Shown: positions 1-63,011 of the stretch, one piece after another
Position numbering within the stretch: the stretch's first letter is position 1
How the letters are laid out: each line of letters begins with the position of its first letter
Assembly (NCBI RefSeq): GCF_902806985.1
Contig: NZ_CADCXY010000002.1
Location: forward strand, 1-64,000
Length of the DNA stretch: 64,000 nt
Direction: 5' to 3'
Origin: Pseudidiomarina piscicola
GTDB taxonomy: Bacteria > Pseudomonadota > Gammaproteobacteria > Enterobacterales > Alteromonadaceae
Program-made: the position numbers and the translations under genes
Notes under the pieces: model-generated
What the model was told of the DNA's origin: nothing
The model's database searches: none
The model's input: the letters and a program-made list of their open reading frames with translations, nothing else

Positions 1-99
<99 letters not shown>

Positions 100-112
100 G
101 CAAGTATTATTG

Positions 113-187
113 TTTTTCAAACATCTAACATCAAATAGCAAACATCGCTTTTTTTCAAACATCGAACATCAAATAGCAAACATCGCT
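113..187. repeat. Two 38-base copies of degenerate heptamers in inverted orientation
   Basis: Two related segments repeat with a 38-base period (the TTTTTC boxes end at 118 and 156). Read on the minus strand they resolve into consecutive heptamers GATGTTT, GCTATTT, GATGTTC or GATGTTA, and GATGTTT, then an A-rich stretch. Orientation is opposite to the pure GATGTTC array at 1-98, so the two blocks together form an inverted repeat. The block ends about ten bases beyond the zapE stop codon and would lie in its 3' untranslated region. Confidence 0.9.
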
Positions 188-6336: not shown

Positions 6337-6996
6337 TTAGCTTTTATCATCATCGTAAGGCTGAATCGGCTGTTGGCCTTTTTCACGCAGCAGTTCGATG
6401 GTGCCGTCGATACCACGATCGCGGATCACCGATGAAATTTCCGCAGCTTTACTATTTAACAAGCTTACGCCCTCAACCACCAAATCATAAGCTTTCCACA
6501 GCCGTTCATCGCTGTCATAACGCAATTTGAAGTCCATCCGCACGGGAGGGCGACCTTGGCCCTCTTCAATCAAGCGGGTGTTGACTTCGACCATACGATC
6601 ATCGGGGCTCAGCTCACGCGCGCGCTCGAACTTGAAGGTATGCTTAGTTTCGTCATATTGGGTGAACGCACGACCATAGGTGGCGATCAAATATTCACGA
6701 AACACTGCGTAAAATTCTTGGCGTTGCTCAGCGGTCGTTTCTTTTAGGTTGCGCCCTAAAACACGCTTGGCTGCATACGTAGAGTCGATATAAGGCATTA
6801 GTTCTTCGCGAATAATTACCCGTAAATAATCGAGATCTTGATCGATTTTCGCGCGGTCGTCAGCGATGCGACTCGCAGTTTTATTGGCGACTCGCTCGAG
6901 CAAGCTATACGGATTTTCATCACGAATAACCTCAGCGCTCGCGGTACCGACGACCGTCAGCATTGCGGCAACTAACAGTGCATACAACGTTTTCAT
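6337..6996 (-). CDS. mlaC: MlaC, periplasmic phospholipid-binding shuttle
   Basis: This 219-residue protein has a signal peptide ending in Ala-Ser-Ala at about 19-21 and the MlaC fold, which carries one phospholipid between the outer-membrane MlaA complex and MlaFEDB in the inner membrane. The ATG at 6996 is chosen because an AAGGAG ribosome binding site lies five bases before it and overlaps the mlaD stop codon; the in-frame GTG two codons upstream lacks such a site. The C-terminus ends in an acidic DDDKS tail. Confidence 0.93.
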   Translation of the reverse strand: MKTLYALLVAAMLTVVGTASAEVIRDENPYSLLERVANKTASRIADDRAKIDQDLDYLRVIIREELMPYIDSTYAAKRVLGRNLKETTAEQRQEFYAVFREYLIATYGRAFTQYDETKHTFKFERARELSPDDRMVEVNTRLIEEGQGRPPVRMDFKLRYDSDERLWKAYDLVVEGVSLLNSKAAEISSVIRDRGIDGTIELLREKGQQPIQPYDDDKS

Positions 6997-14340: not shown

Positions 14341-14799
14341 ATGGATTTATCCACAATGTTAAGCCCAGACTGCACGCGCAGTGCAGTCTCGGGCTCAAGT
14401 AAAAAGAAAGTTCTTGAACTCATTGGTCAGCTCGCTGCTCCGCGCCTTTCAGGAACCACGAGTTTCGATGTGTTTGAAAGCTTACTCAACCGCGAACGCC
14501 TTGGCAGTACCGGTATTGGTCTTGGGGTGGCGATTCCTCATGGTCGACTAAGCACTGCCAATAAACCTGTTGCTGTGCTACTGACCTTGGATGAGCCCAT
14601 CGACTTCGATGCCATTGACAATCAAGCTGTTGATATCGTCTTCGCATTATTGGTTCCCGAAGACGAACATGAGCAACACTTGCAAACTTTGGCAAGCGTG
14701 GCCCAACGACTGAACGATAAAAGCTGCACACGGGCATTACGCGAGGCGAAAAGCGATCAAGAACTCTTCGACCTATTCAACAGCCAAGAGTCTAGTTAA
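14341..14799 (+). CDS. ptsN: Nitrogen PTS enzyme IIA PtsN
   Basis: The 152-residue protein is a fructose-type EIIA domain with the phosphorylatable histidine at His67 in IPHGRL. In the nitrogen PTS it accepts phosphate from NPr and regulates potassium and nitrogen metabolism instead of transporting sugar. Enzyme I-Ntr (PtsP) is not encoded here. It begins three bases after hpf. Confidence 0.95.
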   Translation: MDLSTMLSPDCTRSAVSGSSKKKVLELIGQLAAPRLSGTTSFDVFESLLNRERLGSTGIGLGVAIPHGRLSTANKPVAVLLTLDEPIDFDAIDNQAVDIVFALLVPEDEHEQHLQTLASVAQRLNDKSCTRALREAKSDQELFDLFNSQESS

Positions 14800-14802
14800 G
14801 CG

Positions 14803-15654
14803 ATGCAATTAATTATTGTCAGTGGCCGCTCAGGGTCCGGTAAAACCATTGCCCTAAGGGTGCTTGAAGACCTTGGCTATTATTGTGTCGATAACCTGCC
14901 GATCATGCTGTTACCAACCTTGGTTCATGCCATTCAAGATCAGTATGCCAACGTTGCAGTAAGTGTTGATGTTCGCAACTTACCCGCGAACCACGATGAC
15001 TTAGCTGACGCCCTTGATTTTCTGCCTGATAAAATTAAACCGCAGATTCTTTTTCTTGATTCAAACGACCAAATATTGCTGCAGCGTTTTGGCGAGACAC
15101 GCAGAATGCATCCGCTGTCACGACAAGAAATGCCCCTAAGTGAAGCCTTGCAGTTGGAATCAAAATTGCTTGAGCCGCTGGCAGAACGGGCGACTTGGCG
15201 TATTGAAAGTAGCGAACTGAGCGTTCATCAACTTAGCGAACAAGTTAGTGAGCGCGCGTTAGGGCAAGCGGCTTCACGGTTAATTGTGGTGTTTCAGTCG
15301 TTTGGTTTTAAGTATGGGCTACCGCCCGATCTCGACTATGCCTTTGATGCCCGCATTTTACCGAACCCCCATTGGGAACCTCATCTCAAGGCTTTAACGG
15401 GGAGCGACAGCGAAGTTCAACACTTCTTTGCGCAGCAGCCCTTGGTCACCAAGTTTATCCATCAGTTAGAAACCTTTTTGGCGACCTGGCTACCGCACTT
15501 TCAACGCAGCAACCGTAGTTATTTAACCATTGGCATTGGCTGTACCGGAGGCCAACACCGCTCGGTTTACATCGCCGAACAATTAGCCGAGCGCTTTGCT
15601 GATCATGACTTTAAAGTACAAATTCGCCATCGCGAGAGTGAGCGTCGCAAATGA
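14803..15654 (+). CDS. rapZ: RNase adapter protein RapZ
   Basis: A 283-residue protein with an N-terminal P-loop domain (GRSGSGKT, 8-15) and the C-terminal RNA-binding domain that ends in a basic, Arg-rich tail. In enterobacteria RapZ delivers the GlmZ small RNA to RNase E and so tunes glucosamine-6-phosphate synthesis; whether GlmZ exists here cannot be judged from the window. Its last four bases overlap npr. Confidence 0.95.
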   Translation: MQLIIVSGRSGSGKTIALRVLEDLGYYCVDNLPIMLLPTLVHAIQDQYANVAVSVDVRNLPANHDDLADALDFLPDKIKPQILFLDSNDQILLQRFGETRRMHPLSRQEMPLSEALQLESKLLEPLAERATWRIESSELSVHQLSEQVSERALGQAASRLIVVFQSFGFKYGLPPDLDYAFDARILPNPHWEPHLKALTGSDSEVQHFFAQQPLVTKFIHQLETFLATWLPHFQRSNRSYLTIGIGCTGGQHRSVYIAEQLAERFADHDFKVQIRHRESERRK

Positions 15655-60403: not shown

Positions 60404-61360
60404 ATGACACATGATGTGATTAGCGGTGGGCAGCCGATTCATGCCCCAGACAACCTTAAGCCCCTGTTGCAGGACATCCTGCAACAGGCGCAGTCTGTTC
60501 ACGATGGTAAGGTGGCCGACTATATTCCGGCGCTTGCCCAAGTAAAACCAGATTATTGCGCCCTTACGGTCGCGACGTTAGATGGTCGCGTTACCTCAGT
60601 GGGTGATACCGATACCCCATTTTCAATTCAGTCCATTTCAAAAATATTTGGCTTAATGCTAGCGATGGAGCGCGTCGGTGAGTCTTTGTGGGAACGGGTG
60701 CAAATGGAGCCCTCGGGGCAGCCGTTTAACTCTATTGTTCAGCTTGAGTGGGAACGCGGAATACCACGGAACCCAATGATCAATGCCGGTGCTATTTTGG
60801 TGAGCGATGTCTTGGTTAGCCATTACTCGGCCAGTAAGTCGGCGGTTCTAAGCATGGTGCGTGGGCTCTGTAATAGCGGCAATGTATGCGTTGATAGCCA
60901 AGTACACGACTCCGAACGCGAACACGGTGCGCGCAATGCCGCCCTAGCCTATCTGATGAAAAGCTTTGGTAATATCGAAGCCGATGTGGAAGAAGTGTTA
61001 GACCACTACTTCTGGCAATGCGCCCTAACCATGACCACCGAAGAGCTTGCACGTAGCCTAGCTTTCCTTGCAAATCGGGGAAAATGCCCTCACAGCGGCC
61101 AGCAAATCACCTCTCATCGCGATGCCCAGCGCATCAATGCCTTGTTAAGTACCAGTGGCATGTACGACCAATCAGGGCAGTTTGCATTTACCGTAGGACT
61201 TCCTGCCAAAAGTGGCGTCGGCGGAGGTATTGTTGCCATCGTACCTGATTACGGTGTAATTGCGGCGTGGTCGCCACCGCTGAATAGCTTTGGGAACTCG
61301 GCGAAGGGAATGGCGATGATTCGTAACTTAGCAAATCAACTCGGCTTGAGTGTATATTAA
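60404..61360 (+). CDS. glsA: Glutaminase A
   Basis: A 318-residue serine-dependent glutaminase of the beta-lactamase fold, which hydrolyses glutamine to glutamate and ammonia. The catalytic Ser77-x-x-Lys80 lies in QSISK, and NPMINAGAI, SxxN-type and GGG(I/V) motifs (VGGGIVAIVP) are present. It follows uvrA by four bases and is probably co-transcribed. Its TAA stop at 61358-61360 is the first three bases of the repeat array. Confidence 0.96.
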   Translation: MTHDVISGGQPIHAPDNLKPLLQDILQQAQSVHDGKVADYIPALAQVKPDYCALTVATLDGRVTSVGDTDTPFSIQSISKIFGLMLAMERVGESLWERVQMEPSGQPFNSIVQLEWERGIPRNPMINAGAILVSDVLVSHYSASKSAVLSMVRGLCNSGNVCVDSQVHDSEREHGARNAALAYLMKSFGNIEADVEEVLDHYFWQCALTMTTEELARSLAFLANRGKCPHSGQQITSHRDAQRINALLSTSGMYDQSGQFAFTVGLPAKSGVGGGIVAIVPDYGVIAAWSPPLNSFGNSAKGMAMIRNLANQLGLSVY

Positions 61361-61457
61361 GAGCAAGAGCGATGTTGGATGTTTGATGTTCGCTGTTTGT
61401 TGAAAGCTAAGAGCAAGAGCGATGTTGGATGTTTGATGTTCGCTGTTTGTTGAAAGC
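61358..61457. repeat. Two perfect 50-base direct repeats of forward heptamers behind glsA
   Basis: A 50-base unit occurs at 61358-61407 and again at 61408-61457, with a degraded third copy to about 61490. Inside each unit the heptamers GATGTTG, GATGTTT, GATGTTC, GCTGTTT follow without gaps, flanked by GAGCAAGAGC and TTGAAAGC. The first copy begins with the glsA stop codon. Confidence 0.93.
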
Positions 61458-61486
61458 TAAGAGCAAAGGCGCTGTTGGTTTTTGAT

Positions 61487-61780
61487 TTTTCAAACAGCGA
61501 ACATCTAATAGCAAACATCGCTTTCGTTTTTGGTCTTTTCAAACAGCAAACATCGAACATCAAACATCGCTTTCGTTTTTGGTCTTTTCAAACAGCGAAC
61601 ATCTAATAGCAAACATCGCTTTCGGTTTTGGTCTTTTCAAACAGCGAACAGCGAATAGCAAACATCGCTTTCGGTTTTGGTCTTTTCAAACAGCGAACAT
61701 CTAATAGCAAACATCGCTTTCATTTTTGGTCTTTTCAAACAGCGAACATCTAATAGCAAACATCGCTTTCGTTTTAGGAT
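61487..61780. repeat. Six 49-base direct repeats of inverted heptamers before tuf
   Basis: TTTTC boxes at 61487, 61536, 61585, 61634, 61683 and 61732 mark six copies with an exact 49-base period. On the minus strand each copy reads as heptamers GATGTTT, GCTATTA, GATGTTC, GCTGTTT followed by GAAAAGACC. Orientation is opposite to 61358-61457, and 61435-61449 pairs perfectly with 61491-61505 (15 bases). The stretch 61361-61780 holds no gene. Confidence 0.95.
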
Positions 61781-61781
61781 C

Positions 61782-61810
61782 AAAAAAGGGAGCCGAAGCT
61801 CCCTTTTTAA
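61782..61810. terminator. Terminator of the str operon (after tuf)
   Basis: Read on the minus strand, GGGAGC and GCTCCC enclose a TTCG loop, giving the stable C(UUCG)G tetraloop, and a run of six T follows. Flanking A and T runs make it bidirectional, so it can also stop glsA transcripts. It sits 17 bases beyond the tuf stop. Confidence 0.92.
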
Positions 61811-61826
61811 ATAAACGCCAGCTAGA

Positions 61827-63011
61827 TTAGTCAATAATCTTAGAAACTACGCCTGCGCCTACTGTACGGCCACCTTCACGGATTGCGAAGCGTAAACCTT
61901 CGTCCATCGCGATTGGGTGAATCAGTTCAACAACAAATTTCAAGTTGTCGCCTGGCATGACCATTTCTACGCCTTCTGGTAACTGTACTGCGCCAGTTAC
62001 GTCAGTTGTACGGAAATAGAACTGTGGACGATAGCCTTTAAAGAATGGCGTGTGACGGCCACCTTCTTCTTTGTTCAATACATATACTTCCGCTTCGAAT
62101 TTCGTGTGCGGAGTGATTGAACCTGGCTTCGCCAATACTTGGCCACGTTGGATCTCGTCACGCTTAGTACCACGCAACAACGCACCGATGTTCTCGCCTG
62201 CACGACCTTCGTCAAGCAATTTACGGAACATTTCAACACCAGTTACGATGGTCTTGGTGGTGTCTTTGATACCAACGATTTCTACTTCGTCACCTGTGCG
62301 AACGATACCACGCTCTACACGACCAGTTACAACGGTACCACGACCTGAGATCGAGAATACGTCTTCGATTGGCATGATGAACGGCTTATCGATATCACGC
62401 TCTGGCTCTGGAATGTAGCTATCTAAAGCTTCTGCCAGTTCGATGATTTTCGCTTCCCACTGCTCTTCGCCTTCCAACGCTTTCAACGCTGAACCTTGAA
62501 CAACTGGTAAGTCGTCACCTGGGAAGTCGTATTCTGAAAGCAATTCACGTACTTCCATTTCTACCAATTCCAACAACTCTTCGTCGTCAACCATGTCACA
62601 TTTGTTCATGAAGACAACGATGTACGGAACGCCTACCTGACGTGAAAGCAAGATGTGCTCACGCGTTTGTGGCATTGGGCCGTCAGTTGAAGCGACTACC
62701 AAAATCGCGCCGTCCATTTGCGCAGCACCGGTGATCATGTTTTTCACATAGTCAGCGTGTCCTGGGCAGTCAACGTGTGCGTAGTGACGCGTAGGAGTGT
62801 CATACTCTACGTGTGAAGTAGAGATGGTGATACCACGCGCTTTTTCTTCTGGAGCGTTATCGATTGCTGCGAAGTCTTTCGCTGCGCCACCATAGGTTTT
62901 AGCCAATACAGTGGTGATAGCTGCAGTCAGAGTAGTTTTACCGTGGTCAACGTGGCCGATAGTACCGACGTTCACATGCGGTTTCGAACGTTCAAATTTT
63001 TCTTTTGACAT
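61827..63011 (-). CDS. tuf: Elongation factor Tu
   Basis: The 394-residue GTPase delivers aminoacyl-tRNA to the ribosome. GHVDHGKT (19-26), the DCPGHADY switch II motif and NKCD are intact. The position directly after fusA marks it as the str-operon copy; a second tuf elsewhere is likely but not visible. Strong coding bias is expected. It precedes the UUCG terminator. Confidence 0.98.

Follow-up and report, generated by a model that had tools for sequence, protein, structure and literature searches.

Some bacterial repeat families are linked to a gene. In REPIN-RAYT systems one resident gene is accompanied by many short, gene-less inverted repeats in the spacers, of species-specific sequence, the REP itself being a short palindrome with a GTAG/CGTC tag. 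The 23S rRNA intervening sequences carry a gene of the IVP family (PF05635) inside an inverted repeat; to our knowledge, PF05635 proteins have no established role outside 23S rRNA. Repeats with a unit of seven nucleotides form tandem arrays in cyanobacteria, where they are known as STRR heptanucleotide repeats.

Several phyla are known to contain heptamer repeats, for which the available parts of the sources give no mechanism (PMC4679880, PMC6749651). The TAACTGA repeats of Beggiatoaceae, Cyanobacteria and Bacteroidetes are tandem heptamers, mostly intergenic, with many sets per genome and a patchy distribution; in the Beggiatoa genome they are direct and situated mostly just upstream of start codons, and a repeat-binding protein was suggested as a possible mobile element (MacGregor 2015, PMC4679880, available part). 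The GATAGRA satellites of Chloroflexus are also tandem heptamer arrays (PMC6749651, available part). As to the protein, Avd of diversity-generating retroelements (DGRs) is described as a homologous four-helix-bundle protein (PMC10053308, available part), and 23S rRNA IVP figures among the abbreviations in a figure legend on CRISPR-associated clusters (available part of PMC10910872); one may speculate that heptamer arrays might be taken for CRISPR arrays.

The heptamer array and its surroundings

The window, that is, the whole 64-kb stretch of DNA analysed (G000:C2:1-64000), belongs to a genome of 2.51 Mb in 16 contigs, placed in Pseudidiomarina (the genus referred to below) by its glsA relatives. 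It contains a heptamer array between two ORFs that we take to be glsA, to judge from its sequence, and tuf (Table 1). The sequence-only reading had proposed two direct 50-mers followed by six inverted 49-mers, and its coordinates, direction and unit lengths were borne out; the two 50-mers are identical. Each unit combines a single block of four G[AC]T[AG]TTN heptamers with a linker of ca. 21-22 nt; the claim that all copies decompose into gap-free heptamers does not hold, since heptamer runs cover 224 of 423 bases and the remainder is linker. The first block is separated by 10 nt from the glsA stop codon (61358-61360). Matches to two consecutive heptamers numbered 43 in the 64-kb window, versus a mean of 0.12 and a maximum of 2 in shuffled sequences.

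Table 1. Heptamer elements of the window and neighbouring features.
Feature	Position	Strand	Basis and remarks
(GATGTTC)n, 14.1 copies to contig end	1..99	+	TRF, pattern search
Inverted four-heptamer block, contig-start element	120..146	-	Pattern search
Inverted four-heptamer block, contig-start element	158..184	-	Pattern search
Left neighbour, glutaminase-like gene	60404..61360	+	ORF; closest relative 92% identical, P. halophila
Forward 50-bp unit 1	61358..61407	+	Same as next 50 bases, TRF period 50; includes glsA stop codon
Four-heptamer block, forward 1	61371..61398	+	Heptamer pattern match
Forward 50-bp unit 2	61408..61457	+	Identical to unit 1; TRF period 50
Four-heptamer block, forward 2	61421..61448	+	Heptamer pattern match
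Putative third forward unit, degenerate, with the change of direction	61458..61485	+	By eye
Six inverted 49-bp units	61484..61777	-	Adjacent units 43-47/49 identical; TRF period 49
Four-heptamer block, inverted 1	61493..61519	-	Heptamer pattern match
Four-heptamer block, inverted 2	61542..61568	-	Heptamer pattern match
Four-heptamer block, inverted 3	61591..61617	-	Heptamer pattern match
Four-heptamer block, inverted 4	61640..61666	-	Heptamer pattern match
Four-heptamer block, inverted 5	61689..61715	-	Heptamer pattern match
Four-heptamer block, inverted 6	61738..61764	-	Heptamer pattern match
Hairpin GGGAGCCGAAGCTCCC before T run	61788..61803		By eye; outside array
Right neighbour, EF-Tu gene	61827..63011	-	ORF

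The array shares its heptamer alphabet with the element at positions 1-187, and at both loci a forward block precedes an inverted one, as had been noticed from the letters. Both loci had also been placed behind stop codons: this is correct on the glsA side, whereas at 1-187 the only visible gene end is the right-hand one, with its stop 12 nt from the element according to a mechanical ORF call. Among the matches listed, (GATGTTC)14 recurs at six contig ends (window 1-99, L111 1-99, L118 end, L120 1-99, L124 end and L128 end), and the 14 copies thus probably reflect an assembly cut-off and not the true array length.

The hairpin downstream of the array is likely the tuf terminator; a consensus terminator scan listed none at 61788..61803. 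Screening of 61300-61850 for Rfam RNAs gave 8 matches up to E 1, every one under the gathering score, and an RNA of this kind was discarded.

Heptamer elements across the genome

The repeats had been read as a dispersed family with a defined structure, not as random microsatellites, to be sought in the whole genome, in relation to stop codons and in relatives. The reading is supported by many copies, four-heptamer runs and a fixed order. A three-heptamer pattern gave 205 overlapping matches (94 + 111) genome-wide, compared with 0 for the reversed pattern. The words are GATGTT, GCTGTT and GCTATT, with rare GATATT and GTTGTT. We examined the window and 19 genome stretches around array places; among the matches listed there, 61 of the 75 runs of at least three heptamers were exactly four long, and all 6 runs of at least eight heptamers were (GATGTTC)14 at a contig end. 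Adjacent runs in this set, again among the matches listed, were ordered forward-forward (18), forward-inverted (17) or inverted-inverted (12), and never inverted-forward, and some elements are single-armed. Elsewhere in the genus, one inverted-forward case each was found in the G033 and G016 stretches, and the length of exactly four was weak or absent in several genomes (0/4 runs in G014, 0/6 in G012, 1/6 in G036 and 1/5 in G003).

By mechanical ORF calls, and among the matches listed, 17 of 28 elements have a stop-facing gene on their left side. Eleven of them begin 5-16 nt past the stop, which in one case is that of the IVP gene; one further element overlaps the gene end, and five lie 36-432 nt from the stop.

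Two further observations concern the surroundings of the elements. Near the C5 and C9 contig ends, GATGTT-type elements appear, by reading, inside older GTTCGTACGC-type sequence (L126, L129). In two species, adjacent tRNA genes, presumably for tRNA-Glu, are each trailed by a heptamer element (L117 1880-2240; L142 ca. 950-1490).

An IVP gene between heptamer blocks

Outside the 64-kb window, at G000:C3:314999-315463, forward and inverted four-heptamer blocks enclose a gene of 116 aa. Its product belongs to PF05635 (116.8 bits, cut-off 33.8) and TIGR02436 (111.1 bits, cut-off 24), has a solved relative in PDB 2gsc (five chains, E 1.9e-22) and matches PHROG 3206, "Avd protein of DGR" (E 3.3e-5). 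No further Pfam or NCBIfam domain was found in this protein, which leaves the copying step considered below without an assigned enzyme. PADLOC gave no match for it.

In several IVP genes, the inverted words themselves apparently encode the C-terminal residues (NSE, NND, NNE, NNQ) and the stop codon; this is seen in the DNA for L154 and L165 and is a deduction for L161, L169 and L170.

Within the genus, one IVP gene goes with many words per genome. Exactly one PF05635 match per genome was found in 17 of 26 genus genomes, that of G011 being partial, and a generalised pattern of four heptamers, GNTRYTN x4, in 19 of 26, own genome included. Words were present in 17/17 IVP-bearing versus 2/9 IVP-less genomes (one-sided p 5e-5). 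The two exceptions, G007 and G018, have words without IVP; the remaining seven IVP-less genomes have no words, two of them being incomplete (77 and 86%). The reversed GNTRYTN x4 pattern matched in 12/26 genus genomes, with the highest counts in G004 (18+10) and G036 (20+0), and in G009 it gave 1+8 matches versus 2+12 for the pattern itself; these reversed matches are probably due to other tandem heptamers.

IVP loci beyond the genus

The pairing of IVP genes with inverted heptamer blocks holds in the genus and extends far outside it. PF05635 matches occurred in 77 of 369 class genomes, 71 of them above the cut-off, and several genomes outside the genus have more than one IVP. The class loci come from the best-scoring 30 of the 77 matching genomes, own included, the other 29 all being used, and they therefore are a top-scoring and not a random subset. 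A named-genome set was taken from 36 genomes picked for breadth among 80 glsA-relative loci; 17 had a PF05635 match, 16 above the cut-off, and 29 loci from 16 genomes were used, P. halophila being excluded. A viral set of 36 IMG/VR loci was reduced to 27 with a crude protein-similarity filter. As control we used 63 of the 80 glsA loci, leaving out L031-L042, and L064, L073, L075, L100 and L110, which were dropped without a strict rule.

The best tandem period between 4 and 12 was determined within 200 bp on each side of the IVP gene, with gene orientation handled. Period 7 was best at 28/29 class, 19/29 named-genome, 16/17 genus and 23/27 viral-contig loci, and at 5/63 glsA control loci; at a distance of 700-900 bp, the corresponding values were 3/29, 6/29, 0/17 and 4/27. 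At least 20 of 28 period matches were reached at 24/29 class, 13/29 named, 12/17 genus and 18/27 viral loci, and at 1/63 of the control. Upstream 9-mers were found again downstream mostly in inverted orientation, with inverted:direct ratios of 20:2 (class, 7 ties), 16:5 (named, 8 ties), 13:1 (genus, 3 ties) and 19:4 (viral, 4 ties), versus 9:18 in the 63 control loci. The words vary by genome (orientation as printed), among them GGGAGTA, TCAGTTA/G, CGGTGGC, AGTGTTC, GTGAATA and RATTCTG. None of 40 IVP loci (29 class, 11 genus) had an LSU/23S rRNA match at the Rfam gathering score.

Dispersed words are in excess in IVP-bearing genomes. We compared 40 of the 71 class genomes with an IVP above the cut-off with 40 of 292 IVP-less ones, the latter status being mostly read from absence among the 77 listed PF05635 positives. 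The pattern GBGADTR x3 matched in 14/40 IVP-bearing versus 0/40 IVP-less genomes (p 1.5e-5, without kinship correction), in some of the 14 with a single match. Removal of the six genomes that had suggested the pattern left 8/34 versus 0/40 (p 0.0012), and the reversed pattern, which was not author-chosen, gave 11/40 versus 0/40 (p 2e-4), both also without kinship correction.

Two loci deserve separate mention. The Halomicronema IVP gene (L245) is flanked by an 8-nt repeat, GTTAGAAC, and not by heptamers. The 1.5-Mb genome G495 has eleven weak PF05635 matches, ten of them scoring 34.4 or 31.3 bits; a distant relative may have expanded there.

Shared sites and exchanged words

Two sister species, G010 and G033 (82.9% identity over aligned blocks exceeding 800 bp), have common sites with differing words. 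In a compared stretch of 200 kb, 17 spacers were examined, four of them with no element in either species; 14 sites, the IVP site included, had an element in both, of the same type at 5 and with different words and loops at 9, a count that omits further runs near 20k, 58k and 94k of G010 and 21k and 99k of G033. By reading, 8 of the 9 switched sites have flanks that can be aligned right up to the element on either side; at site "57k" this is true of the left flank only. An end-of-block pattern, poorly designed, gave 10 matches in G010 and G033.

The site before tuf holds words in 6 of the 7 alleles inspected, mostly in differing alphabets; P. taiwanensis and a P. indica strain have GTTATTC in common, and a P. 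indica MAG has no words. Between AAAGCC and AAGGCTTT, the glsA-tuf spacer of this MAG is without a 61-bp stretch present in the P. indica strain, a difference that could be gain or loss, and we rejected it as proof of a clean insertion. Also rejected was a clean empty allele at rpsT-murJ: among seven IVP-less genomes inspected at this locus, G005 alone keeps murJ beside rpsT, with unrelated sequence between them. None of the sites compared showed a clean insertion with target duplication. One element of the own genome, L112 1794, is missing from the corresponding place in G010 and G033, and in the position of another, L112 6701, both of these species have a different repeat.

In G010 and G033, the place of a heptamer element that follows a stop in G000 is taken by a different repeat, with CCCGGCGT...ACGCCGGG palindromes (L259 ca. 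6420-6560, L270 ca. 14640-14850), which, at a guess, is perhaps a REP family of the Y1_Tnp gene.

Close relatives have IVP genes of differing sequence at one site. IVP distances show only a weak relation to murJ distances (r 0.145, p 0.087), indicating that different IVP genes occupy the rpsT-murJ site of close relatives. Word content in the 200 bp beside the IVP gene correlates with IVP protein distance (Mantel r 0.61, p 2e-4, n 13; 0.62 when partial on murJ) and not with murJ distance (r -0.01); this comparison left out G031, with no countable flank words, and G008, G009 and G011, with no usable murJ or a partial IVP. The correlation could be simple linkage in one cassette.

Dispersed words were collected from 12 species in stretches of 100 kb, from G010 and G033 in 200 kb, and from the own loci, with G035 and G011 out. 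Flank words were closer to dispersed words from their own genome than to those from other genomes (0.65 vs 0.38; p 0.0034, n 12, after dropping G031, G008 and G009, with no countable words), and the own genome ranked first for 4 of the 12 species. Dispersed-word distance did not track IVP protein distance (Mantel r 0.067, p 0.26, n 14) nor species distance (r 0.143, p 0.15). The dispersed words of G014, G037 and G004 are unlike their own IVP flanks and might be remnants of an earlier IVP.

Folding of the array and pairing of the arms

The array folds more stably than shuffled sequences (z -9.1), which the shared alphabet alone can explain, and this value thus does not speak for a selected stem. 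Taking each forward four-heptamer block with its inverted partner, we scored the fraction of paired positions within versus across elements: 0.852 vs 0.882 in G000 (11 pairs, permutation p 0.99), 0.969 vs 0.959 in G010 (6 pairs, p 0.16), 0.944 vs 0.867 in G033 (4 pairs, p 0.25) and 0.917 vs 0.923 in G016 (4 pairs, p 0.83). There was no sign of arm covariation or compensatory pairing in these four genomes, and a compensatory hairpin or covarying stem was accordingly rejected.

Origin of the heptamer elements

We consider it probable that the heptamers belong to an IVP-partnered repeat system, working like REPIN-RAYT with an unrelated protein. The array would have arisen by local amplification of one copy of a dispersed element without a gene, composed of an AAAGC-like outer end, four heptamers, a short loop and four inverted heptamers, and the copy at G000:C3:314999-315463, whose loop carries the relative of the DGR protein Avd, would be its gene-bearing relative. 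IVP would recognise the word, in DNA or RNA, and would assist in the copying of elements to sites, already occupied or favoured, that lie between a stop codon and the following gene; the tandem 50/49-mers would have arisen by later local duplication. The logic would be that of REPIN-RAYT, with a single resident gene and numerous short gene-less repeats. In favour are the IVP gene enclosed by inverted blocks in the own genome, the co-occurrence of IVP and words in the genus and the class, period 7 and inverted sharing beside IVP genes, the changed words at common sites of G010/G033, and flank words that follow IVP distance and resemble the dispersed words of their genome. Several results count against this: dispersed words do not follow IVP distance, the own genome ranks first for only 4 of 12 species, the words of G014, G037 and G004 differ from their IVP flanks, G007 and G018 have words without IVP, the best period was other than 7 at 10 of the 29 named-genome loci, several genomes outside the genus have more than one IVP, exactly four heptamers is a weak rule in several genomes, no insertion with target duplication was found, and cassette linkage is possible.

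The words might instead be regulatory sites, with IVP as an RNA- or DNA-binding regulator, the blocks behind stops as its binding sites, and words that follow the specificity of the protein. The tight placing behind stops (12 of 17 stop-facing cases at 16 nt or less or overlapping, among the matches listed), the common sites with changing words in G010/G033 and the arms without covariation, as expected if each block is recognised singly, would fit; nevertheless, loops switch along with the words at changed sites (by reading), local amplification reaches six units, (GATGTTC)n arrays exist, and words persist in the IVP-less G007 and G018, and we regard this explanation as unlikely. Words without IVP in these two genomes, and the word/IVP mismatch in G014, G037 and G004, are also what would be seen if IVP cassettes were passengers landing in heptamer arrays of other origin, which is a distinctly improbable account given that the tested arrays occur in 0/40 IVP-less versus 14/40 IVP-bearing class genomes and that 7 of 9 IVP-less genus genomes are without words.

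A function of forward and inverted blocks as a hairpin, that is, a transcription terminator or an mRNA-stabilising stem, agrees with the placing of elements at gene ends and with the z of -9.1, although any inverted array would give such a value; the arms of four genomes show no compensatory pairing, some elements have a single arm, and a separate hairpin with a T run adjoins the array (by eye), which makes this function very improbable. Ordinary microsatellites generated by replication slippage could be invoked for the pure heptamer arrays and for the generic pattern, present in 40 of 148 genomes of the order, own included, yet scarcely for a four-heptamer length with variable letters, a fixed forward-inverted order in the own genome, the many places and the tie to one gene family; slippage is contradicted as the whole story, and it may be behind the long pure arrays. 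We likewise give next to no credence to a REP/REPIN family driven by a RAYT: the own genome has one Y1_Tnp gene, but no compact palindrome was seen by reading, and in a small sample of 13 genus genomes no association appeared, Y1_Tnp being present with words in 7 and without words in 2, and absent with words in 3 and without words in 1.

Beyond the IVP-partnered repeat system, a bolder extension can be put forward tentatively, and we doubt it more than we trust it: IVP and words might form a widespread copy-and-replace system, in which the Avd-like protein would read the four-heptamer word and direct templated rewriting, including that of its own cassette, at fixed sites behind stops, perhaps via an RNA/cDNA intermediate as in DGR retrohoming. 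If true, the heptamer repeats of many phyla would be accounted for.

Comparison with known systems

A literature search, mainly of open-access papers and with no bioRxiv preprints, found no link between PF05635 and heptamers, and there is none in the available parts of PMC5524665, PMC11637426 and PMC5787105. Within reach of the open literature, what is new is therefore the two-part system of IVP and heptamers, the array alone being a further heptamer repeat. With the STRR/TAACTGA-type class the family shares tandem 7-nt units at many intergenic places, but its words (GATGTT, GCTGTT, GCTATT) are not those of that class. A likeness is seen at L173, where TCAGTTA/TCAGTTG (as printed) lie beside an IVP gene, TCAGTTA being the reverse complement of TAACTGA; the available part of PMC4679880 names no partner gene; here the proposed partner is IVP. 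Similarly, forward-inverted blocks and a partner gene are absent from the available descriptions of STRR and GATAGRA, and the present family has both.

The protein belongs to the same family as that of the 23S intervening sequences (PF05635), but 0 of 40 IVP loci here lie within 23S rRNA. With the DGRs the system shares an Avd homologue (PHROG 3206). REPIN-RAYT differs in its unrelated protein family, in the REP palindrome, which by reading is replaced here by heptamer blocks, and in that the words showed no association with Y1_Tnp in the small sample of 13 genus genomes. The tie between IVP and heptamers offers a candidate function for each of them and a first testable explanation for heptamer repeats so far unexplained, and it may represent a second, RAYT-independent way for bacteria to keep populations of tiny repeats.
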